Shown here: in pieces, positions 1 to 39,409 of the stretch
How the letters are laid out: each line of letters begins with the position of its first letter
How positions within the stretch are numbered: the first letter of the stretch is position 1
Origin: Oscillospiraceae bacterium
GTDB taxonomy: Bacteria > Bacillota > Clostridia > UBA1212
Length of the DNA: 39,409 bases
Direction: 5' to 3'
Assembly (NCBI GenBank): GCA_015069195.1
Contig: SVJA01000017.1
Span: 1-39,409, forward strand
Notes under the pieces: model-generated
The model's input: the letters and a program-made list of their open reading frames with translations, nothing else
Database searches by the model: none
What the model was told of the DNA's origin: nothing
Position numbers and translations under genes: made by a program

Positions 1-831
1 CCGGCAAATATTGCAACTTCTGTTTTAAAGCCGACAATGGACTCTTCAAAGACTATGCTTGCACATAAGAAGATTCCGCTTATCGTTGCAACAGGAGGTC
101 CCGGTGTTGTTACAACAGTACTTTCTTCAGGTAAGAGAGGTATTGGAGCCGGTGCAGGTAACCCGCCTGTAATCGTAGATGAGACAGCAGACATTCCGAA
201 AGCTGCAAGAGATATTGTTAACGGATGTACATTCGATAACAACCTCCCTTGTATCGCTGAAAAAGAAGTTGTTGCAGTTGAGTCTATCGCTGATGAGCTT
301 ATTTACCACATGGTTGAGAACGGTTGTTATATCGCTTCTCAGGCAGAATTGGAAAAACTCATTGCAACTGTTCTTACTCCTAAGGGATTGAACAGAAAGT
401 GCGTAGGTCGTGACGCTAAGACATTGATGTCGATGATCGGTGTAGAAGTTCCTTCTAATATTCGTTGTATTATCTTCGAGGGTGAAAAGGAACATCCGCT
501 TATCGCAGAAGAGCTTATGATGCCTATTCTCGGTATTGTAAGAGCTAAAGATATCGATGATGCTATCGAGAAAGCAGTATGGCTTGAGCACGGAAACAGA
601 CATTCCGCACATATGCATTCTAAGAATGTTGAAAATATCACAAAATTCGGTAAAGCTATTGACACAGCTATCTTCGTAAAGAACGCTCCGTCATATGCAG
701 CACTCGGATTCGGCGGTGAAGGCTACTGTACTTTCACAATCGCCAGCAGAACAGGTGAAGGTCTTACATCTGCTTCAACATTCACAAAGAGAAGACAGTG
801 TACAATGGCTGACAGCTTATGTGTAAGATAA
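1..831 (+). CDS. CoA-acylating aldehyde dehydrogenase of the microcompartment (PduP-like), 5' end missing
   Basis: The reading frame is open from the first base, so the N-terminus, including any encapsulation peptide, is outside the window; 276 residues remain. It belongs to the CoA-acylating aldehyde dehydrogenase family (PduP/EutE), which turns an aldehyde (propionaldehyde if the substrate is 1,2-propanediol) into acyl-CoA with NAD+. The visible part holds the ATGGPG and SSGKRGIGAGAGNPP segments of the nucleotide and CoA region and the catalytic cysteine in NNLPCIAEKE (TGT at 250-252). The C-terminus ends with the typical FTKRR...C stretch. It is the first visible gene of the shell operon and is followed 15 bases later by the alcohol dehydrogenase, behind a GAGAGGAG ribosome site. 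The acyl-CoA product would feed PduL at 3678-4313. The family call is firm; the exact substrate depends on the missing upstream signature enzyme. Confidence 0.93.
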   Translation, partial: PANIATSVLKPTMDSSKTMLAHKKIPLIVATGGPGVVTTVLSSGKRGIGAGAGNPPVIVDETADIPKAARDIVNGCTFDNNLPCIAEKEVVAVESIADELIYHMVENGCYIASQAELEKLIATVLTPKGLNRKCVGRDAKTLMSMIGVEVPSNIRCIIFEGEKEHPLIAEELMMPILGIVRAKDIDDAIEKAVWLEHGNRHSAHMHSKNVENITKFGKAIDTAIFVKNAPSYAALGFGGEGYCTFTIASRTGEGLTSASTFTKRRQCTMADSLCVR

Positions 832-846
832 GAGAGGAGTGAAAAT

Positions 847-2055
847 ATGAGTAATGCGAATATCGAAGAGATCGTCAGACAAGTTCTCGCATCTATGAAC
901 GGCGCTCCTGTTGCTTCAGCTGCTGCTCCCGCTTCAAACGGAGCTATTCCTGCTACAGCAAAAGTTGCTATGCTCACAGGTCTTGAGAAAGTTGAAATCA
1001 AAGAGTTCCCTATGCCTGAAGTCGGTGACGACGATATGCTCGTCAAGGTTGAAGGTTGCGGTATCTGCGGTACTGACGCTCACGAGTATAAGAGAGACCC
1101 GTTCGGTCTTATCCCTGTAGCACTCGGTCACGAGGGAACAGGTGAGATCGTAAAAATGGGTAAAAACGTTAAGGTTGACAGTGCCGGTAAGCCTGTTAAA
1201 GTCGGTGACAAGATCGTTACATGTATGATTTTCAAAGACAATCCGGCAATCACAATGTTCGACCTTAATAAGCAGAATGTAGGCGGTGCTGATGTTTACG
1301 GACTTCTTCCGGATGACGATGTACACCTTAACGGTTGGTTTGCTGACTACATTCTCATAAGAGGTAAGCTCGGTTCTACATTTTTCAATGTAAGTGACCT
1401 TGACCTCGAATCAAGAATTTTGATCGAGCCCTGTGCAGTTCTTATCCACGCAGTCGAGAGAGCTAAAACAACAGGTATCCTTAAGTTCAACAGCAAAGTT
1501 GTTGTTCAGGGATGCGGACCTATCGGTCTTATCTGTATCTCAGTTCTCAGAACAATGGGTATCGAGAACATCGTAGCAGTTGATGGAAACGCACAGCGTC
1601 TTGCATTTGCAAAGAAGATGGGTGCAACCAAGTCTGTTAACTTTATGGAGCACAAGGGTATTGAAGCTCTTGCAAAAGCTGTTGAAGATGCTTGCGGCGA
1701 CACACTTGCTGACTTTGCATTCCAGTGTACAGGTTCACCTGTAGCTCATGCAAATATTTACAAGTTCATCAGAAACGGCGGCGGACTTTGCGAACTCGGA
1801 TTCTTCATCAACGGCGGAGATGCTACTATCAACCCGCACTTTGATATCTGCTCTAAAGAAATCACAACAGTAGGTTCTTGGGTATACACTTTGAGAGACT
1901 ATGTTACAACATTTGATTTTCTTAAGAGAGCACAGGCTATCGGACTTCCGATGAAGGATTTGATAACACACAAATTCCCGCTCGAACAGATTAATGAAGC
2001 ATATGTTACAAACATTAAGCAAGAAGGTCTTAAGATTGCTATCATTAACAAATAA
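847..2055 (+). CDS. Zinc-dependent medium-chain alcohol dehydrogenase with N-terminal encapsulation peptide
   Basis: This 402-residue protein probably reduces the compartment aldehyde to alcohol and regenerates NAD+ inside the shell. Residues 1-19 form a short amphipathic helix (IEEIVRQVLASM), followed by an Ala/Pro-rich linker to about residue 38, the layout of a BMC encapsulation peptide. The medium-chain dehydrogenase fold follows: GCGICGTD gives the catalytic zinc cysteine (C74), GHEGTG gives H95-E96, and the Rossmann motif GCGPIG lies near residue 220. The four-cysteine structural zinc lobe of classical alcohol dehydrogenases is absent; the matching region (DNPAITMFDL...) has no cysteine cluster. 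The start is set by GAGAGGAG at 832-839. A zinc dehydrogenase in this position next to the aldehyde dehydrogenase is, from memory, typical of the fucose/rhamnose-type glycyl radical compartments. The true substrate (propanal, lactaldehyde or a ketone) cannot be read from sequence. Confidence 0.9.
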   Translation: MSNANIEEIVRQVLASMNGAPVASAAAPASNGAIPATAKVAMLTGLEKVEIKEFPMPEVGDDDMLVKVEGCGICGTDAHEYKRDPFGLIPVALGHEGTGEIVKMGKNVKVDSAGKPVKVGDKIVTCMIFKDNPAITMFDLNKQNVGGADVYGLLPDDDVHLNGWFADYILIRGKLGSTFFNVSDLDLESRILIEPCAVLIHAVERAKTTGILKFNSKVVVQGCGPIGLICISVLRTMGIENIVAVDGNAQRLAFAKKMGATKSVNFMEHKGIEALAKAVEDACGDTLADFAFQCTGSPVAHANIYKFIRNGGGLCELGFFINGGDATINPHFDICSKEITTVGSWVYTLRDYVTTFDFLKRAQAIGLPMKDLITHKFPLEQINEAYVTNIKQEGLKIAIINK

Positions 2056-2074
2056 TTTTTGAGGAGAGATTGTC

Positions 2075-2389
2075 ATGGCAGAAGCCGTAGGATTTATTGA
2101 GGTATATGGATTGGTTGCAGCATTTGTTGCCGGAGACGCCGGATGTAAGGCTGCCGATGTCAGAATGGAAGTTTTTGACAGAAACAAACCTGCAAAGGCC
2201 GATACGTTGCCTGTACCGCTTATCGTTTTAGTAAAGTTCCGTGGAAGCGTTGCTGCAGTAGAAGCGGCTCTCGAGGCTGCAAAAGATGCTGCAAACAATG
2301 TTACAGCAGTAATTTCAACACATGTTATTGCAAATCCGGAATCGGATACGGAAAAAATGCTCAAACTGAGCGGTCTGGATAAAAAGTAA
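2075..2389 (+). CDS. BMC-domain hexameric shell protein (BMC-H), 104 aa
   Basis: A single BMC domain covers nearly the whole protein: it opens with AVGFIEVYGLVAAFVAGDAGCKAADV and closes with STHVIANPESDTEKML. Such proteins assemble as hexamers that tile the flat facets of the compartment, with a central pore for metabolites. It differs from the other three BMC-H genes here by an insertion in the middle of the domain (around DRNKPAKADTLPVP, residues 38-51) before the LVKFRGSVAAVEAA strand-helix, so it is a distinct shell type rather than a recent copy. The ribosome site GAGGAGAG lies at 2061-2068 and the gap to the preceding dehydrogenase is only 19 bases, so they are co-transcribed. The fold is certain; pore selectivity is unknown. 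Confidence 0.92.
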   Translation: MAEAVGFIEVYGLVAAFVAGDAGCKAADVRMEVFDRNKPAKADTLPVPLIVLVKFRGSVAAVEAALEAAKDAANNVTAVISTHVIANPESDTEKMLKLSGLDKK

Positions 2390-2400
2390 GCATTTGCTTT

Positions 2401-2431
2401 TTGATAATCCTTTATATATTTATTTTATAAA
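2401..2431 (+). promoter_or_regulatory. possible internal promoter ahead of the major shell gene
   Basis: In an AT-rich gap of 77 bases between two shell genes there is TTGATA at 2401-2406 and TATAAA at 2426-2431, with 19 bases between; TTTATA at 2424-2429 would give 17. Such an element could raise expression of the abundant PduA-type shell protein that follows. AT-rich gaps produce such matches by chance, so this is tentative. Confidence 0.3.
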
Positions 2432-2466
2432 ATTTATTTATTTGATTTTAATTGGAGGTATTTATT

Positions 2467-2745
2467 ATGTCACAGGAAGCTTTAGGTATGATCGAAACCA
2501 GAGGTTTGGTTGCAGCAATCGAAGCTGCAGATGCTATGGTTAAAGCAGCAGAGGTTGTTCTCGTTGGAACTGAGAAAATCGGTTCAGGTTTGGTAAGCGT
2601 TATGGTACGCGGCGATGTAGGTGCTGTTAAGGCTGCTACAGAAGCTGGTGCTTCAGCTGCTACAAAACTCGGCGAGCTCGTAGCTGTTCATGTAATTCCG
2701 AGACCTCACACAGACGTTGAGAAAATTCTCCCTGTTATAAAATAA
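2467..2745 (+). CDS. BMC-H shell protein, PduA/EutM-like, 92 aa
   Basis: This is a compact single BMC-domain protein that forms facet hexamers. It starts [23 protein letters not shown] and ends [21 protein letters not shown], close to the canonical PduA/PduJ/EutM pattern. An upstream in-frame TTG at 2452 exists, but the ATG at 2467 is the better start: it is 6 bases after GGAGGTA (2454-2460), and the TTG would overlap that ribosome site. The protein differs from the shell core at 3266-3544 at only 11 of 92 positions by my alignment, so the two are a recent duplicate pair. It is probably the main facet protein. Pore preference cannot be told. Confidence 0.93.
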
Positions 2746-2789
2746 TAGATCTTACATAGACTTATTATTTAACTGAGAGGAGTACAACA

Positions 2790-3077
2790 ATGAAATCATT
2801 AGGATTTATTGAAGTCTCTAGTGTTACAGGTGCGGTTGATGCTCTTGATATTATGTGCAAGACAGCTGATGTCGAGTTCGTTACTTGGGAACGAAAGTTA
2901 GGCGGAAGATTGGTAACCATAGTAGTTACCGGAAATGTATCCGCAGTAACACAAGCTGTTGAGGCTGCATTGGAAAAAGGTAAAGTAAAACCGTGTTCGC
3001 ATGCGGTTATTGCTAATCCCCATGAGGAAACAAAGCGCATCGTTGAGATCAGCGCAAGTAGACTCAAGAAAGTGTGA
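2790..3077 (+). CDS. BMC-H shell protein, divergent type, 95 aa
   Basis: One BMC domain is recognisable from [29 protein letters not shown] through [15 protein letters not shown]. It is clearly more divergent from the duplicate pair on either side of it, with a WERKLGG turn and a basic C-terminus (SASRLKKV), and may be a minor shell component with different pore properties. A ribosome site GAGAGGAG lies at 2774-2781. Its last codons overlap the possible GTG start (3074) of the next shell gene, so the two are likely translationally coupled. Confidence 0.9.
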
Positions 3078-3082
3078 TTGAG

Positions 3083-3544
3083 ATGGCAGAGACTAAGAAA
3101 CCAAAAACAACTACTGCACCCAAGAGTGGTGCAAAGGCGGCTTCTTCGAAGTCAGCTAAAAAAATCAATTCAGTGGCAGCGTCCATCGCTGCTGCTGCAG
3201 ATAAAAAATCCGTGAAAACGGAAACTACTGAAAAAGTTACTACAACTATTAAGGAGGAAAAGAAAATGGTTCAGCAGGCTTTAGGTATGGTTGAAACAAG
3301 AGGTTTGGTTGCAGCAATCGAAGCTGCAGACGCTATGTGCAAAGCAGCTAACGTTGAGTTGGTTGGCACAGAGAAAATCGGTTCCGGTTTGGTAAGCGTT
3401 ATGGTTAGAGGCGACGTTGGCGCTGTTAAGTCAGCTACAGAGGCTGGTTCATCAGCAGCTTCAAAGCTCGGTGAGCTCGTTGCTGTTCACGTAATCCCGA
3501 GACCTCATACAGATGTTGAGAAAATTCTTCCCTCATTGAAGTAA
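3083..3544 (+). CDS. BMC-H shell protein with Lys/Ala/Thr-rich N-terminal extension
   Basis: Residues 1-61 (from ATG 3083) are low-complexity and strongly basic, beginning [19 protein letters not shown] and rich in Lys, Ala, Thr and Ser, reminiscent of histone-H1-like tails. The last 92 residues are a complete PduA/EutM-like BMC domain nearly identical to the protein at 2467-2745. A GTG at 3074 overlapping the previous stop is an alternative start. An internal ATG at 3266 (MVQQALGM) sits behind a near-perfect AAGGAGG at 3251-3257, so the same message may give a long and a short form. The long frame has no stops and keeps coding-like composition, but whether the extension is translated needs proof. 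In BMC-H hexamers the N-terminus usually lies near the concave face, so a tail could bind cargo, another shell tile or a polyanion; this is inference. Confidence 0.85.
3251..3268 (+). promoter_or_regulatory. strong internal ribosome binding site and alternative ATG
   Basis: AAGGAGG at 3251-3257 is followed 8 bases later by an in-frame ATG at 3266 that begins a normal 92-residue BMC-H. By contrast, only a weak purine stretch (AAGAAAG, ending at 3074) precedes the start at 3083. The short form may therefore be the main or an additional product. Confidence 0.65.
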
Positions 3545-3552
3545 TTTTCTCG

Positions 3553-3625
3553 TTTCACAGCTTTTGTGAAATAATTTATGATAATGCATAACCGCCGCTT
3601 TCGGGCGGCGGTGACATCGCATTAT
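3553..3625 (+). other. two intercistronic RNA hairpins
   Basis: The gap between the last BMC-H gene and pduL holds a 7-bp stem (TTTCACA 3553-3559 with TGTGAAA 3565-3571) and then a two-tier structure. The lower stem is ATAATGC 3581-3587 with GCATTAT 3619-3625; the upper stem is ACCGCCGC 3591-3598 with GCGGCGGT 3605-3612. No run of T follows, so this is not a standard terminator. It may protect or process the message and set shell-to-enzyme ratios. Confidence 0.65.
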
Positions 3626-3677
3626 TTACCGGATCGTAAGATTTGGTGTTATTTAATTATTTAGCAGGTGATTTATT

Positions 3678-4313
3678 ATGGATAGATCTGTTGAGGATAT
3701 TACGAAGATTGTCTTGGGCATTCTTGAAAAAGAAAAAGATACAGGATTTGCCGTTCCGGTAGGTGTATCAGCAAGACATATTCATTTAACTCAGGAACAT
3801 GTTGAGACTCTCTTTGGTAAGGGATATCAGCTTACAAAGAAAAAAGAGCTTATGGGCGGTCAGTTCGCTTCTAATGAGCTTGTTACAATCGTAGGTGTTA
3901 AACTTCGTGCGATTGAAAATGTCAGAGTTCTCGGTCCTGTAAGAAGTAAATCACAGGTTGAGATTTCTCAGACTGACGCTGTTAAACTCGGTGTAAGAGC
4001 TCCTATAAGACTTTCGGGACAGCTCAAAGAATCTGCGCCTATCGCAGTTGTAGGTCCTAAAGGTGTTGTATATCTTGACGAAGGCTGTATTATTGCAGAG
4101 CGTCATATACATATGAGCCCAAGAGATGCACAGGTTGCAGGCGTCAATGATAAGGATGTTGTATCTGTTAAGTTCAATAACGAGCGCGGTACAATGTTCA
4201 ATAACGTAACAATTCGTGTTGACGAGACATTTACTCTTGAAATGCACATTGATACAGACGAAGCTAATGCTTCAAAAATTAAGACCGGAGATATCGGTGT
4301 TATTGTAAAGTGA
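3678..4313 (+). CDS. pduL: PduL-type phosphate propanoyltransferase
   Basis: This 211-residue protein converts acyl-CoA plus phosphate to acyl-phosphate and free CoA inside the compartment, recycling CoA for the aldehyde dehydrogenase and allowing later ATP formation by a kinase. It shows the PduL two-barrel signature: SARHIHLTQEH with H34 and H36, ERHIHMSPRDA with H143 and H145, and a late LEMHIDTDEANA with H190; histidines of this type hold the two zinc ions in known PduL structures. Residues 1-20 (SVEDITKIVLGILEKEK) form a helix resembling an encapsulation peptide and the N-terminus of the dehydrogenase at 847-2055. The start follows GCAGGTG at 3664-3670. It is flanked by shell genes and bordered on both sides by hairpin-rich gaps. 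Length matches the family. Confidence 0.95.
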   Translation: MDRSVEDITKIVLGILEKEKDTGFAVPVGVSARHIHLTQEHVETLFGKGYQLTKKKELMGGQFASNELVTIVGVKLRAIENVRVLGPVRSKSQVEISQTDAVKLGVRAPIRLSGQLKESAPIAVVGPKGVVYLDEGCIIAERHIHMSPRDAQVAGVNDKDVVSVKFNNERGTMFNNVTIRVDETFTLEMHIDTDEANASKIKTGDIGVIVK

Positions 4314-4318
4314 TTTTT

Positions 4319-4371
4319 GTTGCTTATAACGGGCCGTCATGATTAATTTCGTGGCAGCCCTTTGGGGCAAC
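4319..4371 (+). other. long intercistronic hairpin between pduL and the vertex gene
   Basis: An inner stem of 12 positions pairs 4331-4342 (GGGCCGTCATGA) with 4349-4360 (TCGTGGCAGCCC), with one mismatch and some G-U pairs. An outer stem pairs GTTGC 4319-4323 with GCAAC 4367-4371. No T-tract follows. It is the second such element in this operon and precedes the vertex protein, which is needed in very few copies, so partial termination or altered mRNA decay would make sense. Confidence 0.6.
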
Positions 4372-4427
4372 TATTAAAGGTTGAAAATAATTCATTAGTT
4401 GATAAATATATTCAATAGGGTGATATT

Positions 4428-4694
4428 GTGATTATAGGAAAAGTTGTAGGCAGTATTGTTGCCACAAGAAAAAATGAAAACCTTATCGGAAGCAAATTTA
4501 TGATTGTAGAGCCGCTTAAGAGTATGGACTGCAATTCAAACAGAATCGTTGCCGTTGATAATGTTGGCGCAGGTATCGGTGAAATCGTACTTGTTGCTCA
4601 GGGCAGTGCTGCACGCATAGGTTGCGGTATTGATTCATCACCGGTTGACGCAGCTATCGTTGGTATAGTTGATGACGGAGCAGGATTACAATAA
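4428..4694 (+). CDS. BMC vertex protein (EutN/CcmL-like pentamer)
   Basis: This 88-residue protein has the EutN/CcmL fold signature: GKVVGSIVATRKNENLIGSKFMIVEPL at the start, AVDNVGAGIGEIVLVAQGSAAR in the middle and a C-terminal DAAIVGIVDDG. Such proteins form pentamers that cap the twelve vertices of the icosahedral shell. The start is GTG at 4428 behind AGGGTGA (4417-4423); no better start exists. A GTG start and the hairpin upstream fit a low-copy subunit. The gene lies between pduL and the PduS-like gene, the usual context. Confidence 0.93.
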   Translation: MIIGKVVGSIVATRKNENLIGSKFMIVEPLKSMDCNSNRIVAVDNVGAGIGEIVLVAQGSAARIGCGIDSSPVDAAIVGIVDDGAGLQ

Positions 4695-4731
4695 AAGTTT
4701 ATATATAGTTTGATAAAAGTAGGTGTATTTT

Positions 4732-6057
4732 ATGAAAATGGAAGAACTTACGAAAGTCTTGCGTGAGGCAGGCGTTGTCGGTGCAGGCGGTGCCGGATTT
4801 CCTTCTTATGCAAAACTCAACAAAGCAGCAGATACAATTATATTGAACTGCGCTGAGTGTGAGCCTCTTCTGAAGCTTCACAGACAGGTGCTTGAAAAGT
4901 ATGCTTTTGAAATAATGACAGCGCTTGATATAGTTGCGGATGCTTGTGAAGTAAACCGCGTTATCATTGCTGTAAAAGGTTCTTACAAAGGTGCAATTGA
5001 TGCGGTCAATGCTCATCTTGATTCTTTCAAAAAAATAGAAATAGGTCTTTTGCCTGAGATTTATCCGGCCGGTGACGAGGTTATAACTATTTACGAGACT
5101 ACAGGTCGTGTAGTTCCTCCGGGAAGTATTCCGATCTCAGTAGGCGTTATTGTTTATAATGTTGAGACAATGCTCAACGCATACAACGCTGTAAAAAAGT
5201 CAGAACCCGTTACTGAAAAGTACATTACTGTTGCAGGAGAAGTTAAAAATCCTATTACGGTAAAGGTTCCTCTCGGAACTCGTTTTGACGAGGTTATTGC
5301 CTTAGCAGGCGGTACGACCACAGACGACTATGTGATAATAAACGGCGGCCCAATGACCGGCCCGAAAGCAAATATATTTGATACTGTCACAAAGACAACA
5401 AATGCATTGCTTATTCTTCCTTCAAATTCTTTTGTTGCAGAGAAGAGAAAGCAGAATGTAAAAGTCGATGTAAACAGAGCAAAATCTGCTTGTTGCCAGT
5501 GCAGAATGTGTACGGATCTTTGCCCGAGAAATCTTTTGGGACATCCGATTGAGCCTCATGCATTTATGAATGCTTTGGCAAACAATTCAGCTTCTCAGGT
5601 TGATGCGGTTGTAAATACATTCTTCTGTTCACAGTGCGGTCTTTGCGAGATGTATTCATGTTTCCAGGGCTTGTCACCTAAAACCCTTATAGGTGTTGCT
5701 AAGGGCAATCTCCGCAAAAACGGTGTTCAGATTCCGAAGGTTGACGCAGCTCCCGTAGAGCCTAAGAGAGACTACAGAAGAGTTGCTATGAAGCGTCTTA
5801 CTGCAAGACTCGGTCTTACACAGTACAATCTTCCCGCACCTCTTGACGAGTCAGCTGTTAAACCTGCTATGGTCAAAATCAAACTTTCACAGCATATCGG
5901 TGCTCCGTGTGCAGTAAAAGTAAGTGTCGGTGATAAGGTTGTTAGGGGACAGGTTATCGGTTGTACAGATGCTGATAAACTCGGTGTTTGCATACATTCA
6001 TCGATAGACGGAATTGTTTCCGATATCAATGATCAGTTTGTTACTATAAAAGCTTGA
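4732..6057 (+). CDS. PduS/RnfC-like flavin and iron-sulfur electron-transfer protein
   Basis: This 441-residue protein belongs to the PduS branch of the RnfC/Nqo1 family, which moves electrons between NADH, flavin and Fe-S centres in microcompartments. Near the N-terminus GVVGAGGAGFPSYAKL is the glycine-rich FMN/NADH segment, followed by ILNCAECEP; an SLBB-like region follows in the middle. Two [4Fe-4S] motifs come next: CCQCRMCTDLCPR (5490-5530 region) and CSQCGLCEMYSC (5627-5662 region). The C-terminal part (residues about 380-441) is the RnfC-type hybrid domain, with GAPCAVKVSVGDKVVRGQVIG. ATG 4732 is preferred over GTG 4723 because AGTAGGTG lies just ahead of it. It stands immediately before the PduT-like shell trimer, its expected partner. 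Whether it recycles cobalamin (as in Pdu) or another radical/redox cofactor depends on the missing signature enzyme. Confidence 0.92.
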   Translation: MKMEELTKVLREAGVVGAGGAGFPSYAKLNKAADTIILNCAECEPLLKLHRQVLEKYAFEIMTALDIVADACEVNRVIIAVKGSYKGAIDAVNAHLDSFKKIEIGLLPEIYPAGDEVITIYETTGRVVPPGSIPISVGVIVYNVETMLNAYNAVKKSEPVTEKYITVAGEVKNPITVKVPLGTRFDEVIALAGGTTTDDYVIINGGPMTGPKANIFDTVTKTTNALLILPSNSFVAEKRKQNVKVDVNRAKSACCQCRMCTDLCPRNLLGHPIEPHAFMNALANNSASQVDAVVNTFFCSQCGLCEMYSCFQGLSPKTLIGVAKGNLRKNGVQIPKVDAAPVEPKRDYRRVAMKRLTARLGLTQYNLPAPLDESAVKPAMVKIKLSQHIGAPCAVKVSVGDKVVRGQVIGCTDADKLGVCIHSSIDGIVSDINDQFVTIKA

Positions 6058-6075
6058 TGAAAGGATGTACTTCTC

Positions 6076-6624
6076 ATGGGTAAAGCGATAGGTTTAGTAG
6101 AATATAAAACAGTTGCAGCAGGTGTTTCCGCTGCTGACTTAATGATAAAAACTGCAGAAGTTTCTGTATTGGAGGCACATCCCGTATGTCCCGGCAAGTA
6201 CATTGTGCTTATATCTGGCGATTTGAGTGCTGTTCGCGCTGCTGTTGATGCTGCAAAGTCAAGATATACAACACAGCTCATCGACAGCTTCGTTCTCGGC
6301 AATCCTGATGAGTCGATTTTCGCTGCAATTTACGGAGCCGCTGAAATTTCCGATGCAAGAGCTCTCGGTGTTGTTGAAACATTCTCTGTTGCATCTGCGA
6401 TTGTTGCTGCGGATGCAGCTGCAAAAACAGCTGATGTTGAGCTTGTAGAGCTCAGACTTGCACGTGGTATGTGCGGCAAATCATATGCAATGCTTACAGG
6501 AGATGTTTCAGCCGTTACTGCTGCTGTTCAGAAAGCAGAGGCAGAGGCGGGCAGAATGGGTATGTTCCTTGACAGCTCTGTTATTGCAAATCCGGATAAG
6601 AGACTTTGGGATACAATCCTTTGA
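6076..6624 (+). CDS. PduT-like tandem-BMC shell protein with Fe-S cysteine
   Basis: This 182-residue protein has two BMC domains: domain 1 starts GKAIGLVEYKTVAAGVSAADL, and domain 2 starts ARALGVVETFSVASAIVAADA near residue 95. Tandem-BMC proteins form pseudohexameric trimers. In Salmonella PduT, Cys38 from each subunit binds a shared [4Fe-4S] cluster in the central pore; here residue 38 is also cysteine, in HPVCPGKYIV. That strongly suggests a redox-active shell tile passing electrons to or from the PduS-like protein encoded 18 bases upstream. AAAGGA at 6060-6065 supports the start. No frameshift or truncation is visible. Confidence 0.94.
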   Translation: MGKAIGLVEYKTVAAGVSAADLMIKTAEVSVLEAHPVCPGKYIVLISGDLSAVRAAVDAAKSRYTTQLIDSFVLGNPDESIFAAIYGAAEISDARALGVVETFSVASAIVAADAAAKTADVELVELRLARGMCGKSYAMLTGDVSAVTAAVQKAEAEAGRMGMFLDSSVIANPDKRLWDTIL

Positions 6625-6667
6625 TTTATTCAAAGGCGTTGCTTTGTAGTTTTGAAAGGATTTTGCA

Positions 6668-7426
6668 ATGCTTGCTATAGAAAGAAAAAAACTTATATTA
6701 GAGCAACTTCAACGTGACAAAAAAGTCATTGTTGCAGATCTTGCAAAGGTTTTCGATGTTACGGAAGAGACAATTCGCCGTGACCTTGAAAAGCTTGAAA
6801 GGGAAGGATTTGCGCAGAAGATATACGGCGGTGCTGTTTTAAAGGAAAGTTTTAATGTTGACCTTCCTTATGCCGTCAGAAAAAGATCAAATGTTACAGA
6901 CAAGCAGTATATTGCCGGTTTGATAGCGGATATGATACAAGACGGTGACAGTATAATGCTTGATGCGAGTTCAACAGCACTTTTTGTTGCTCAAAATATA
7001 AAATCCAAAAAGAATATTACTATCATAACAAACTCTGTTGAAATTATTTGTGAAATTGCAGACAGAAACAGTTGGAAAGTGATATCGACCGGAGGCACTC
7101 TTAAAGAAGGTGCATTGGCTCTTGTGGGAAGTCAAACTACAAGAACTATCAGCAATTATCATGTTGACCTCGCCGTATTTTCGTGCAAAGGAATAAGTGC
7201 GGAAAGCGGTCTCACTGATGCGAGCGAGAATGATGCAGAAATAAAAAAAGCTATAATAGCGTCTGCACACAGAAAGATATTGGCTGTTGATCATTCAAAA
7301 TTTGATATAGTTTCGTTTGTCGGCATAGCCGATTTAAAGGAAATAGATCTTGTTGTTACAGATAGAAAACCCGACGGAGATTGGGATAAAGTATTCGAAA
7401 AAGAAAGAGTAGAACTCATTTATTAA
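6668..7426 (+). CDS. DeoR-family transcriptional regulator
   Basis: The 252-residue protein has an N-terminal winged helix-turn-helix (RKKLILEQLQRDKKVIVADLAKVFDVTEETIRRDLEKLE, residues about 5-45) and a C-terminal DeoR sensor domain (from about residue 75: ADMIQDGDSIMLDASSTALFVA, then NSVEI and the GG turn at STGGTL). DeoR regulators usually repress sugar or deoxysugar pathways and respond to a phosphorylated intermediate. The gene follows the shell operon by 43 bases with a GAAAGGA ribosome site and no terminator between, so it is probably co-transcribed and controls this operon. A fuculose- or rhamnulose-phosphate type effector would fit the proposed pathway, but that is inference. Confidence 0.9.
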   Translation: MLAIERKKLILEQLQRDKKVIVADLAKVFDVTEETIRRDLEKLEREGFAQKIYGGAVLKESFNVDLPYAVRKRSNVTDKQYIAGLIADMIQDGDSIMLDASSTALFVAQNIKSKKNITIITNSVEIICEIADRNSWKVISTGGTLKEGALALVGSQTTRTISNYHVDLAVFSCKGISAESGLTDASENDAEIKKAIIASAHRKILAVDHSKFDIVSFVGIADLKEIDLVVTDRKPDGDWDKVFEKERVELIY

Positions 7427-7471
7427 AAATATAGCAGTATAATTATATGTCGGAAGGCAGACTTTTTAGAT

Positions 7472-8611
7472 ATGACTGAATTAAAGATTATGTCGGATGT
7501 GTGTTTCGGTGAGAATTCACTGGAGGCACTTTCTCGATATAAAAATAGAAATATTGTGATATATACTGATCCGTTTTTAGCTGAAAGCGGTATGGTGAAT
7601 GCTGTGCTTGAAAAGCTTGACGGTAACAGTTGTCATATTTATACAAAAATCGCTCCGGATCCGAGTATAGAGCAAGTAGGCGAGTGCTATAAGTTTGCAA
7701 AGGAACATAACGCAGATTTGTTTATAGCTTTTGGCGGAGGTTCTGCGATTGATACGGCAAAGGCTGTTTTGTATGTTGACGCAGATGTCAGCGGCGGTAA
7801 AAATATAGAACTTGTTGCAATTCCGACTACTGCCGGTACGGGTTCTGAGGTTACTGATTTCTCTGTAATATCTGATACTGAAAACGGTGTAAAATATCCG
7901 ATTGTTGATAAGAAAATGGCTCCGGATCTCGCTATCTTATGTGCTGAATTTACGGTAAGTGTGCCCCCTAAAGTGACTGCAGCTACCGGAATGGATGTTA
8001 TAACTCATCTTCTTGAGGCGTATGTGTCTAACAGCGCAAATATTATAACGGATTCGGTTGCAGAAAAAGGTCTTGCGCTTGCTTTTGATAATATTTACAA
8101 AGCTTATAAAGAAGGTACTGATATCGCTGCAAGAGATAACATGCTTATGGCTTCGTACCTTGCAGGTGTTGCTTTCAATAATGCAGGTCTTGGTATTACA
8201 CATAGTATCGCACACGGTCTCGGCGCAAATTTCCATATAAGTCACGGTCTTGCAAATGCTATGGTTCTTCCGCATGTTATTGCGTTTAACTCTTGTCTTG
8301 ATGTGCCTTTCGGAATGGACAAATCAGTAGCTGCTCAAAAGTATGCGACTGCTTATTCTAAAATTGGTTGCGAGGATATGGGAACACGTTTAAGTGTTAT
8401 GGGTCTTATTAAGAAAATCAATGAAATGCTCAGACTTATGAAAGTTCCTGTGTCGCTTTCCGAGTGTGGTGTAAGCAGAGAAGCCTTCGAGCAGGCCAAA
8501 CCGATAATAGTAAAATCGGCACTTGCGGATGTTTGTACAACTTATAATCCGAGAGTTCCGGAAGCAAAGAATATAGAAAATATCCTTGACCGTTTATATA
8601 ACGGGATGTAA
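7472..8611 (+). CDS. Iron-dependent (group III) alcohol dehydrogenase, PduQ-like
   Basis: The 379-residue protein shows the Fe-ADH pattern: the N-terminal nucleotide part with FGGGSAIDTAKA (near residue 90), PTTAGTGSEVTDFSVI (near 125), and the C-terminal metal-binding helices with ITHSIAHGLGANFHISHGLANA supplying iron-ligating histidines. Enzymes of this family reduce propionaldehyde or lactaldehyde to alcohols with NADH. It follows the regulator by 45 bases and ends at a clear terminator, so it closes the operon. No extra N-terminal helix precedes the domain, so it may act in the cytosol or be carried in with a partner. With the zinc enzyme at 847-2055 the locus has two unrelated dehydrogenases. 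PduQ-like versus FucO-like cannot be settled by eye. Confidence 0.92.
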   Translation: MTELKIMSDVCFGENSLEALSRYKNRNIVIYTDPFLAESGMVNAVLEKLDGNSCHIYTKIAPDPSIEQVGECYKFAKEHNADLFIAFGGGSAIDTAKAVLYVDADVSGGKNIELVAIPTTAGTGSEVTDFSVISDTENGVKYPIVDKKMAPDLAILCAEFTVSVPPKVTAATGMDVITHLLEAYVSNSANIITDSVAEKGLALAFDNIYKAYKEGTDIAARDNMLMASYLAGVAFNNAGLGITHSIAHGLGANFHISHGLANAMVLPHVIAFNSCLDVPFGMDKSVAAQKYATAYSKIGCEDMGTRLSVMGLIKKINEMLRLMKVPVSLSECGVSREAFEQAKPIIVKSALADVCTTYNPRVPEAKNIENILDRLYNGM

Positions 8612-35972: not shown

Positions 35973-36623
35973 ATGTTGTATTTATTTTCAGCAATAATTC
36001 TGATAGCGGGATATCTGATAGGCAGTGTAAATGCCGCAGTTATAATTTCTAAAACTTTTTATAAGTCAGACATAAGAACTCACGGCAGCGGAAATGCCGG
36101 TACTACAAATATGCTCAGGACTTTCGGTAAGAAAGCTGCGGCAGGTACTTTTTTGATAGATCTTTTAAAAGGTGTATTTGCTGCTCTTTTAGGTATGCTC
36201 ATAATGAAGCTTTTGAGTTTTGATTCCACAACAGGCGCTGTGTGCGGAGCGATAGGTGCGATTTTAGGTCATAATTGGCCCATATATTTCAGTTTCAAGG
36301 GCGGCAAAGGTGTTTTAACGTCTTTTGCGGTATTGCTTGTAATAATGCCGATTCCGTCGCTTATTTGCCTTGGAGTATTTATTGTTGTCGTACTTATAAC
36401 AAGATATGTTTCACTCGGTTCAATGCTTGGAGCATTTGCGCTTCCTTTTTTAGTGTATTTCTTGGGTGACAATCTTTTTATCGAAAGCGGATTTACAATG
36501 TATTTTATACTTTCTGTTTTTGTGGCTGCTTTGCTTATTGCAAGACATCATGCAAATATTGTGCGACTGGTAAAGGGTACAGAGTCAAAACTTTTCTCCG
36601 GTAAGAAAAAAGATGAAAAATAA
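35973..36623 (+). CDS. plsY: Acyl-phosphate:glycerol-3-phosphate acyltransferase PlsY
   Basis: The 216-residue membrane enzyme makes lysophosphatidic acid from acyl-phosphate and glycerol-3-phosphate, starting phospholipid synthesis. It shows several hydrophobic spans, the conserved loop GSGNAGTTNMLRTFG (residues 38-52) and HNWPIYFSFKGGKG (100-113, with KGGKG), plus a late RHHANIVRL. The C-terminus is basic. The site AAGGGGAA sets ATG 35973. Its last four codons overlap the start of the next gene (36613). Confidence 0.96.
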   Translation: MLYLFSAIILIAGYLIGSVNAAVIISKTFYKSDIRTHGSGNAGTTNMLRTFGKKAAAGTFLIDLLKGVFAALLGMLIMKLLSFDSTTGAVCGAIGAILGHNWPIYFSFKGGKGVLTSFAVLLVIMPIPSLICLGVFIVVVLITRYVSLGSMLGAFALPFLVYFLGDNLFIESGFTMYFILSVFVAALLIARHHANIVRLVKGTESKLFSGKKKDEK

Positions 36624-38466
36624 TGAAATACTCAGAACAAAACTGATAACTTCGTATAAGTCTTCAAGCACTTCTATGATTCCTTTTGGTATAGGCGGTT
36701 TGTCTTCGATAGGTATAAAAATTAACCTTTCCGAAGGCAGCCGACTTGTGCGTTTTTTGACGCATTGTCCAAGCTATTCAGACAGTATAGGAACAATTAA
36801 TATTTCTGTTTACAAATGGCTTGGGAATTTTGATGAAACCGTAAAGGAGATTCCTGAATTTTCGGAAGATTACGTGGATTTTCCGGATAACTCTTTTTTG
36901 CTTTCCGAACTTGATAAAGCCGTATCGGGCGGTGAATATCTCATACTTTGCGGTAAAGGTAAAGACACGGTAGGTGTGTGGTGTGCCGCAAATGTCGAAG
37001 ATGTCGATAATCAAAAAGCTAAATATGATATAAAACTCTACACAAACGGTGTAGAAGGCGGCGAATGTATGCCTCGCATTATTTTGTGTATCGAAGAAAT
37101 TGAGAAATGTGACGAAAGTATTTTGAACACCGAATATCCCGTTGATTATGTCAGAAGTGATTGGAACCTGTCAGGTATTCCGTCATACGATTACGGTGTG
37201 CTTGCTGAAAGATTATATAACTGCGGTCAGGGAGTATATCTGAAAGAAGAGTTTTCATCTGAAAATGACAGTTTGATGGTGATTGCAACATCTACGAATG
37301 ATGCCGAGTACAAAGCATATATAAAAAAACTCTCTGAAAACGGTTATAAAAACGAGTTTCATAACGAGATTGATGAAAATATATATGATGCGTTTTACAA
37401 CGAAAAAAACAGGATTTATACGTATTATACGGCAAATGACGGCAGCGTCAGAATAATACTTGATAAAACAAGCACTGATATAAATGATTTCGGTTATACA
37501 TACAAGAAAAAGCCTGATGATACCACAGAAGTGTATCAGTACGGTCTGATAATGGCAGAGACTTTTAATCCAGATATAAATTATCTTGAATACATAGGCG
37601 GAGGAATGTCTTATTTTATCAAACTTGCAGATAACGGCATTTATATGATAGACGGCGGAATGTTTACTCAGTATGACAAAAATCATTGCGACGAGTTTAT
37701 ACGCTTTATGCGTGAGATAACAAAGACACCGGTCGGCGCAAAAGTAAGAATTGCATGCTGGCATATTACTCACGGACATGATGATCATAATTCGGGCTTT
37801 GCATATTTTATGAAAAATTATCACGACGATATTATCATTGAGCGTCTGATGTACAATCTTCCCGATGAATTTAATTCGCATGAGGCTCTTGTCGGAAACT
37901 GCGAGTACAATCACTCAGCATTTGAAAGTATAAAAAAATACTGGCCGGATGCCAAAGAACTTAAAAACCATACAGGCGAAAGAATAAAGCTTGCCGATAT
38001 TGAAATAGAGATTCTGTTTACCCATGAGGATCTGGTTGATTTAAAAACAGGAAAGAGCATAGCATCTGAATTCAATGCGACGAGTACGGTAAGTAAGATT
38101 CATTTTGACGGAAAAAAGCTGATGATAACCGGTGACGTAACCCCTGAGGGTGAAAAGATCATTGTAGAATCTTTTTCGACAGAAACCGTTAAGTCGGATA
38201 TGGTTCAGGCATCACACCACATGATAAATCCTCTTATAACTCTTTATAAAGTTTCGTCACCGGAGATTTTACTTATTCCACAAAATACATTGCACATTGA
38301 GGATTATCCGAGTGTAAAAGCTTTGCATGATGTTATCAGAAAAATATTTAACAGACGATATTATGCAGGTAATGAAACTGTAGGATTCAAAGTAATTGAC
38401 GGCAAAATAGTTGATTTCCACCACGGAAAAATTGTCGGTGGTAAATATACAAATTGGAAATTTTAA
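36613..38466 (+). CDS. Large metallo-beta-lactamase-fold protein with uncharacterised N-terminal region
   Basis: The 617-residue protein ends in a metallo-beta-lactamase domain: ITHGHDDHNSG gives the metal ligands H387, H389, D391 and H392, the TGD step has D508, and QASHHMIN has H535/H536. A first beta strand region (GGMSYFIKLADNGIYMIDGGM, in part, near 335) opens the domain. Residues 1-165 look like a beta-sandwich (CPSYSDSIGTINISVYKW; GGEYLILCGKGKDTVGVWC) and 185-310 form a second unknown part. There is no signal peptide or membrane span. The ATG overlaps the plsY end by 11 bases, with only a weak ribosome site. Family substrates range from nucleic acids to lactones and phosphodiesters, so function is open. 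A close paralogue follows 17 bases later. Confidence 0.85.
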   Translation: MKNNEILRTKLITSYKSSSTSMIPFGIGGLSSIGIKINLSEGSRLVRFLTHCPSYSDSIGTINISVYKWLGNFDETVKEIPEFSEDYVDFPDNSFLLSELDKAVSGGEYLILCGKGKDTVGVWCAANVEDVDNQKAKYDIKLYTNGVEGGECMPRIILCIEEIEKCDESILNTEYPVDYVRSDWNLSGIPSYDYGVLAERLYNCGQGVYLKEEFSSENDSLMVIATSTNDAEYKAYIKKLSENGYKNEFHNEIDENIYDAFYNEKNRIYTYYTANDGSVRIILDKTSTDINDFGYTYKKKPDDTTEVYQYGLIMAETFNPDINYLEYIGGGMSYFIKLADNGIYMIDGGMFTQYDKNHCDEFIRFMREITKTPVGAKVRIACWHITHGHDDHNSGFAYFMKNYHDDIIIERLMYNLPDEFNSHEALVGNCEYNHSAFESIKKYWPDAKELKNHTGERIKLADIEIEILFTHEDLVDLKTGKSIASEFNATSTVSKIHFDGKKLMITGDVTPEGEKIIVESFSTETVKSDMVQASHHMINPLITLYKVSSPEILLIPQNTLHIEDYPSVKALHDVIRKIFNRRYYAGNETVGFKVIDGKIVDFHHGKIVGGKYTNWKF

Positions 38467-38483
38467 GTTAGGATGTACTTTTT

Positions 38484-39409
38484 ATGAACAATCAAAAAGA
38501 AGATAAGTTTAAGACGAGATTGATCCCTGTTTATGACAGCTCTGCTACAGTACATATTCCTTTTGGGGTAGATGAAAATAATTGTATAGGTATAAGATTC
38601 AAAATTGATTCAAAGAGTGTTTTGAAGAGTTTGACAGCGCATTGTCCGAGTTACGGTGATAATATAGGAACACTTCCTATGAATTTTTATAAATGGGATG
38701 AGTCTTACGAAAAAACTGTGTCTTCAGCGCCGATCTACACGGTTGCCCCTGTAGATTTTCCGGATTCTGCGTTTGTTAATGAAGATGTATCTGCAGGAAA
38801 TATTTCAGACGGTGAATATCTTTTCTTGGCTAAAGACGGAAAAGACGGTGTCGGTTTCTGGTGTAATGCACCATACGCAGACGGCAGTACGGTAAAGGAT
38901 GAATTCGGATTTACTATTTACACAAACGGTGCAGAGGGCGGAGAAATTGTGCCTAAAATTATTTTTGAAATAGAGTCTGAGTGTGATGAGAAGGTTTATC
39001 CGGAGTCCGAATACTCCGGTGCAGATTATATAAGAGCCGGATGGATGATAAAGGCTATACCTTCATACGATTACGGAAAACTTTCTGAAAATGTTTATAA
39101 TTGCGGTCAGGGTATTTTTGTTCCGGATGATTTTGACGCATCTGATGATTCCGAAATGATTTGTATAAGCGAAACAAATATCAAAGAGTATAAAAATTAT
39201 ATCAGAAAACTCAGTGAAAACGGTTATGTAAATGAAATGCATAATGAAATATCTTCAAATGTGTATGATATGTATTTTGACGGCAAAAATCGTGTTTATT
39301 GTTATTATACCGAAGAATACAACGAGGTTCGTGTAATACTTGATAAAACCAGTCAAAGTATTTCAAAGTTTAATTATTCGTACGATAAGAAGTCCGGAGA
39401 AACTACCGA
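38484..39409 (+). CDS. Tandem paralogue of the metallo-beta-lactamase-fold protein, 3' end missing
   Basis: From ATG 38484 (site TAGGATG at 38469-38475) the frame is open to the last base of the window, giving 308 residues. It aligns along its whole visible length with the N-terminal half of the gene before it: HCPSYGDNIGT versus HCPSYSDSIGT, IYTNGAEGGEIVPKIIFEIE versus LYTNGVEGGECMPRIILCIE, IPSYDYGKL and YNCGQG, RKLSENGYVNEMHNEI. The metallo-beta-lactamase domain itself, if present, lies beyond the window. A tandem duplication is clear; divergence in the charged regions shows that it is not very recent. Confidence 0.88.
   Translation, partial: MNNQKEDKFKTRLIPVYDSSATVHIPFGVDENNCIGIRFKIDSKSVLKSLTAHCPSYGDNIGTLPMNFYKWDESYEKTVSSAPIYTVAPVDFPDSAFVNEDVSAGNISDGEYLFLAKDGKDGVGFWCNAPYADGSTVKDEFGFTIYTNGAEGGEIVPKIIFEIESECDEKVYPESEYSGADYIRAGWMIKAIPSYDYGKLSENVYNCGQGIFVPDDFDASDDSEMICISETNIKEYKNYIRKLSENGYVNEMHNEISSNVYDMYFDGKNRVYCYYTEEYNEVRVILDKTSQSISKFNYSYDKKSGETT

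Follow-up and report, generated by a model that had tools for sequence, protein, structure and literature searches.

Among proteins of the metallo-beta-lactamase (MBL) fold, two described groups are closest to the genes treated here. The MBL domain of ComEC is a Mn-dependent phosphodiesterase and nuclease and, relative to Pce, has an Asp replacing one His at motif II and an Asn replacing the His at motif III (excerpt of PMC8579336). Pce (CbpE), the pneumococcal teichoic acid phosphorylcholine esterase, is modular, its MBL domain being joined to a binding module, and releases phosphorylcholine from teichoic acid by phosphodiester cleavage (excerpt of PMC4929436). Two related genes, P1 and P2, lie at the end of a 39,409-nucleotide stretch of DNA (the window), the whole of contig SVJA01000017.1 (C14, forward strand) of the 2.0 Mb assembly GCA_015069195.1 of an Oscillospiraceae bacterium (GTDB lineage Bacteria; Bacillota; Clostridia; UBA1212). 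The analysis confirmed that they form a real tandem pair in which both copies are intact. Tentatively, and with less than even confidence, P1 and P2 are read as active hydrolases of the ComEC/Pce branch with a binuclear metal site and a probably cytosolic location, most likely phosphodiesterases (or esterases) with a glycan-derived substrate.

The original prediction of a diverged MBL-fold tandem pair proved correct, as the two open reading frames (ORFs) are separated by 17 bases in the ORF list, share 47% identity in their first ~300 residues and 51% thereafter, and both exceed the Pfam Lactamase_B (PF00753) cut-off of 22.7 bits (P1, 27.9; P2, 25.1 for the part on contig C8). P2 is open at the contig end only, where the last bases of the window recur as the first bases of C8, and the first ORF of C8 (317 residues) extends P2 in frame to ~622 residues. 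In a related metagenome-assembled genome (MAG) from roe deer colon (locus L060, JAFTXP010000014.1), a single 625-residue homologue, which scores 23.8 bits against Lactamase_B, is located between the genes for PlsY and DAHP synthase. Likewise, PlsY lies upstream in the window and DAHP synthase on C8 downstream of P2, after one extra gene, so that the order in L060 independently supports the junction of C14 and C8. The 13-base overlap, the frame and the gene order thus support this junction, with no read spanning it. Since the hydrolase domain of P2 is intact on C8, above the Lactamase_B cut-off, a decayed second copy is ruled out. The same applies to further tandem copies, which had been considered possible beyond the window, as C8 continues after P2 with an unrelated exported protein of 946 residues and then DAHP synthase. 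This exported protein (L006:1100-3940) gives a weak match to a C39-like peptidase and ends, as judged by eye, in a dockerin-like part; it is not found at the corresponding place in L060.

The MBL domain was assigned to the ComEC/Pce clade by fold and by profile. In the AlphaFold2 model of P1 (50 rows, mean predicted local distance difference test (pLDDT) score 84.4), the middle and MBL parts mostly exceed 90, with a weaker N-terminal part. The fold search with the MBL domain gave ComEC as the best match (9ic4, Z 24.9, root-mean-square deviation (rmsd) 3.0, 258 aligned residues), followed by Pce (2bib, Z 24.7, 3.4, 282; 1wra, Z 24.4, 3.2, 266), whereafter it drops to RNase J at Z 17.3, and Foldseek places these proteins in its first four rows. 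In addition, a profile of 50 family rows yielded nine matches at E <=0.01 among PDB sequences, all of them ComEC/Rec2 or CbpE/Pce. The claim that P1 has all metal ligands also held, the ligand columns being kept in 47 to 49 of 49 rows; in a 62-row alignment they are invariant, with His389 at >=90%. Two metal ions would be held by His387, His389, Asp391, His392, Asn488, Asp508 and His535, and a metal-activated water would cleave an ester, most likely a phosphodiester. With ComEC, P1 and P2 share the Asn of motif III, the Asp of motif IV and the two His of motif V, but they lack the competence membrane channel and have two extra N-terminal domains. From Pce, they differ by the motif III Asn (49/49 rows), which is His in Pce (excerpt of PMC8579336), and by the missing signal peptide; choline-binding repeats were searched in P1 by Pfam up to E 10 with no such match. 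As the family and the ComEC of the same genome both have HxHxDH together with Asn, the site is Pce-like at motif II and ComEC-like at motif III.

The proximity to ComEC allows the reading that P1 and P2 degrade DNA or RNA via a ComEC-type site, the front domains binding nucleic acid. The ComEC MBL domain, with its known Mn-dependent nuclease activity (excerpt of PMC8579336), is among the nearest relatives by fold and profile, the motif III Asn is that of ComEC, and the ComEC of the same genome has the same HxHxDH, Asn, Asp and HH pattern as the P1 family. However, that genome already encodes a separate full ComEC (229.8 bits), so P1 and P2 are not its ComEC, and P1 reaches only 14.7 bits against the ComEC family TIGR00361 (cut-off 190.05), over the MBL stretch only. 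Moreover, many relatives look exported, some carry F5/8 type C, dockerin or GH36 parts, and the jelly-roll domain in front is lectin- or CBM-like, which together make a nuclease unlikely.

The ~300 residues preceding the MBL domain had been regarded as one novel, unassigned half. They indeed match no Pfam family, but they consist of two domains, a jelly-roll (residues 1-167, the N-domain) and a DUF6591-related domain (residues 182-300), of which only the former is specific to the genus within the MBL family, whereas the latter is common to the whole family. The family middle domain matched Pfam DUF6591 (PF20234) by hhalign with a probability of 88.4% (E 2.8e-6), compared to 0.3% and 0.4% in controls with the middle domain and DUF6591 each set against the unrelated N-domain. 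Still, family members stay below the curated DUF6591 cut-off of 27.1 bits (a paralogue on contig C21 of the same genome reaches 19.9), and the DUF6591 Pfam scan of P1 gave no match. The match lists of the fold searches were taken up by relatives of the MBL domain or of the jelly-roll. The IPSYDYG/YNCGQG block is conserved as proposed, but in the 14 rows aligned it opens this middle domain and therefore marks the family and not the P1/P2 pair.

The supposed beta-sandwich-like start was recovered in both structure models and is clearer in the second one, calculated for P2 residues 1-308 (mean pLDDT 80.9). The N-domain resembles the lectin-like domain of Cwp84 (4ci7 and 4d59, Z 11.4-11.5, rmsd 3.6, 143 aligned, residues ~6-166) and CBM35 (2w1w, Z 8.0, rmsd 2.7, 103 aligned, model residues 11-164) in the jelly-roll fold over its whole length, but shares only 8-10% sequence identity with them, and no significant relative was found among PDB sequences (best E 0.039). 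Sugar binding by the lectin-like domain of Cwp84 is itself unproven (excerpt of PMC4089489), and as the fold matches of the N-domain are headed by a capsid (Z 12.9) and a phage baseplate domain (Z 12.1), shape alone is no proof of sugar binding. Nevertheless, recognition of a ligand by the N-terminal half, as originally suggested, is plausible, as the fold is lectin/CBM-like and the module also occurs on proteins that are exported or carry a dockerin. Substrate selection would then probably fall to the jelly-roll of this lineage together with the DUF6591-related domain.

Recognizable by a CPS block, a G behind it and a VGxW near the end, the N-domain occurs in eight of 196 genomes of the class (own genome included, E <=1e-6), belonging to the same order and one other family of the class. 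Among loci of the MBL family it is present in P1, P2 and L060 only; other carriers feature a dockerin (L008, L012), F5/8 type C (L020) or CBM6 (L141). Export, called by a crude hydrophobicity rule on N-termini, is typical: 52 of 63 distinct N-domain ORFs have an export-type N-terminus, eight are 5'-open and three have none, although a few of these ORFs may be copies of a single gene listed with differing locus ends. The three (of 55 scorable) are P1, P2 and the L060 homologue (genome G002). Thus, P1, P2 and this homologue contain an otherwise extracellular module but lack a signal peptide. Close to their N-termini, the best 12-residue hydrophobic mean is 1.47 in P1, 0.61 in P2 and 0.45 in the L060 homologue, whereas two proteins of the genome that are exported reach 3.41 and 2.80. 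Export of P1 and P2 was rejected because of the missing hydrophobic stretch and the little in-frame room upstream (open frames of 630 and 312 residues), and their sequences suggest that they are probably cytosolic. The N-domain represents a widespread exported module of the order without a Pfam family, and its description would improve the annotation of many surface proteins. One such protein in the same genome (L008:5797-8373, contig C17) comprises 859 residues, of which the part between the N-domain and a dockerin has no match in Pfam or the PDB, and open frames of ~1100 residues with an N-domain were seen in the genomes G117 and G188.

A genome_contigs scan with a six-row alignment revealed 61 family loci holding 63 family ORFs, while the scan with P1 alone as query gave no relatives. 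Most loci belong to MAGs of Clostridia, often of ruminant gut origin, and one to a Spirochaete; by the same crude rule, an export-type N-terminus is present in 41 ORFs and absent from 19, the other three being 5'-open. The family core is the DUF6591-related domain joined to the MBL domain, and the family is large and mostly found in gut Clostridia. With its middle domain, fusions and N-domain it has no Pfam family of its own, although the MBL clade itself is known; a literature search of partial coverage found no description of the two-domain family and nothing on DUF6591, and a paper that mentions both metallo-beta-lactamase and dockerin proved to be unrelated. Accordingly, gut Clostridia carry many copies whose sole annotation is a generic Pfam label, with no substrate assigned. 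Fusions were scanned in 62 proteins (P1 and 61 of the 63 ORFs, leaving out L102 and L106), giving F5/8 type C in four, GH36 melibiase in two, and dockerin, Big_2 and a pseudomurein-binding repeat in one each. Both GH36 fusions (L079:3619-6915 and L085:7977-11288) are single ORFs that lack an export signal, and each comes from a MAG of its own. In the GH36 part of L079, which aligns with solved alpha-galactosidases at E 3.7e-27, the Asp of KWD and the Asp of WxSD are kept; these we take to be the catalytic pair.

The fusions to GH36, F5/8 type C and dockerin parts hint at an action on glycans. Together with the phosphodiester cleavage by both ComEC and Pce, these fusions favor a glycan-linked phosphodiester or ester as substrate, and across the family it would most likely be a glycan or a glycan-derived (phospho)ester. 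For P1 and P2, metal binding, catalysis and substrate are predicted from sequences and models. Several points weigh against their action on glycan phosphodiesters: the motif III residue is Asn and not the His of Pce; the best fold matches of the N-domain are the capsid and phage baseplate domains given above; only 6 of 62 proteins have glycan-type fusions (the dockerin is found on one of the F5/8 carriers), and these are located in subclades other than that of P1 and P2; no recurrent glycan gene was found beside the family, the commonest Pfam family occurring in 4 of 126 neighbors (126 of 128 neighbors scanned); and the genes around P1 and P2 are housekeeping genes, as judged by eye from the ORFs. 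The MBL fold supports many ester hydrolyses, and this breadth would also permit hydrolysis of a sugar lactone or a carboxylic ester instead of a phosphodiester, with genes for GH116, a rhamnosidase and galactose-1-phosphate uridylyltransferase each located beside single relatives. This alternative is likewise unlikely, as the specific clade is that of ComEC and Pce, which both cleave phosphodiesters.

Extending the preferred glycan (phospho)esterase reading to all members, the family might constitute an unrecognized class of carbohydrate-active metalloenzymes that have an MBL fold and act on glycans as phosphodiesterases (or esterases); some gut Clostridia would export them, at times with a dockerin attached, and others would keep them in the cytosol. 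In the GH36-fused lineage, one polypeptide would remove ester and galactose in turn, and in the genus of the window an otherwise extracellular lectin-like module would have been taken into the cytosol with the enzyme and the gene duplicated. This wider proposal is possible but rather doubtful. If the family does act on glycans, this might uncover dietary or microbial glycans with ester or phosphodiester substitutions that are beyond the reach of known enzymes.

In a 63-row tree (L115 and L120 re-assigned to the exported members because their starts looked too early; three 5'-open ORFs left out), P1 groups with L060 and the C8 part of P2 in a single clade (100/100), in which P2 and L060 are sisters (99/96). 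From this pairing, the gene seems to have been duplicated before the two species diverged, with the P1 copy lost from L060; correspondingly, P1 may not be an orthologue of the L060 gene. Identity to the L060 homologue is 52.9% for P1 and 54.2% and 62.2% for the N- and C-terminal parts of P2, compared to 95.1% for Der, 95.5% for DAHP synthase, 84.6% for PlsY, 85.3% for AroB and 79.0% for DUF512. Thus, P2, the apparent orthologue, is far more diverged than the flanking genes, which points to fast evolution with the ligands kept. Such divergence (53-62% versus 79-95%) would also fit an anti-phage or conflict protein, e.g., an MBL protein that works with a defence reverse transcriptase, and P1 matches PADLOC RTasMBL (31.5 bits, E 2.5e-8). 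However, the closest relative, L060, has no PADLOC match, the ORFs beside P1 and P2 read as housekeeping with no reverse transcriptase seen by eye (no family scan was made for one), and three scans of viral_contigs gave no relatives. The PADLOC match is most simply explained by general MBL similarity, and a defence role is very improbable; a viral origin was dropped due to the same three scans. A partner system was not found either, as clustering of 289 neighbors gave no cluster in more than three loci. Coordinates of all features are compiled in Table 1.

Table 1. Positions of the P1/P2 pair, its domains and predicted active-site residues in the window.
Feature	Position	Strand	Basis or remark
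PlsY gene	35973..36623	+	end overlaps P1 start
P1	36613..38466	+	complete gene, 617 residues, no export signal
P1 residues 1-167, jelly-roll beta-sandwich (N-domain)	36613..37113	+	models, fold comparison, homologues
P1 residues 182-300, alpha/beta domain, distant DUF6591 relative with IPSYDYG/YNCGQG block	37156..37512	+	model, profile-profile comparison and controls
P1 residues 301-617, MBL domain of ComEC/Pce clade	37513..38463	+	models, fold, profile searches
P1 Asp347, motif I (DGG)	37651..37653	+	49/49 rows with a letter
P1 His387-x-His389-x-Asp391-His392, predicted motif II metal ligands	37771..37788	+	H387, D391, H392 49/49; H389 47/49
P1 Asn488, ComEC-like Asn at the motif III position	38074..38076	+	49/49; aligned with own-genome ComEC
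P1 Asp508, motif IV, bridging ligand by homology	38134..38136	+	49/49
P1 His535-His536, motif V	38215..38220	+	49/49 each
P2, 5' part	38484..39409	+	308 residues within the window; goes on at G000:C8:3-953 (locus L006)
P2 residues 1-167, jelly-roll N-domain	38484..38984	+	model, fold comparison
P2 residues 182-300, DUF6591-related domain	39027..39383	+	model, profile-profile comparison
C14-C8 assembly junction	39397..39409	+	13 bases equal to the first 13 bases of contig C8

Further observations concern other members of the family and other parts of the window. Among single MAGs, RGIG930 accounts for nine of the 61 loci (L098, L104, L105, L107, L108, L109, L112, L113 and L120) and RGIG9086 for four (L094, L114, L115 and L117), with many giant exported family members in both, complete ones reaching up to ~1800 residues. 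A separate tandem family pair (L081:7989-10609), without N-domain or export signal, is located directly 3' of a galactose-1-phosphate uridylyltransferase gene. A promoter and terminator scan gave nothing usable. Positions 1-8611 of the window resemble a bacterial microcompartment gene cluster, named by reading the ORFs without a family search, and include aldehyde and alcohol dehydrogenases, shell proteins, a PduL-like protein and a DeoR-type regulator.

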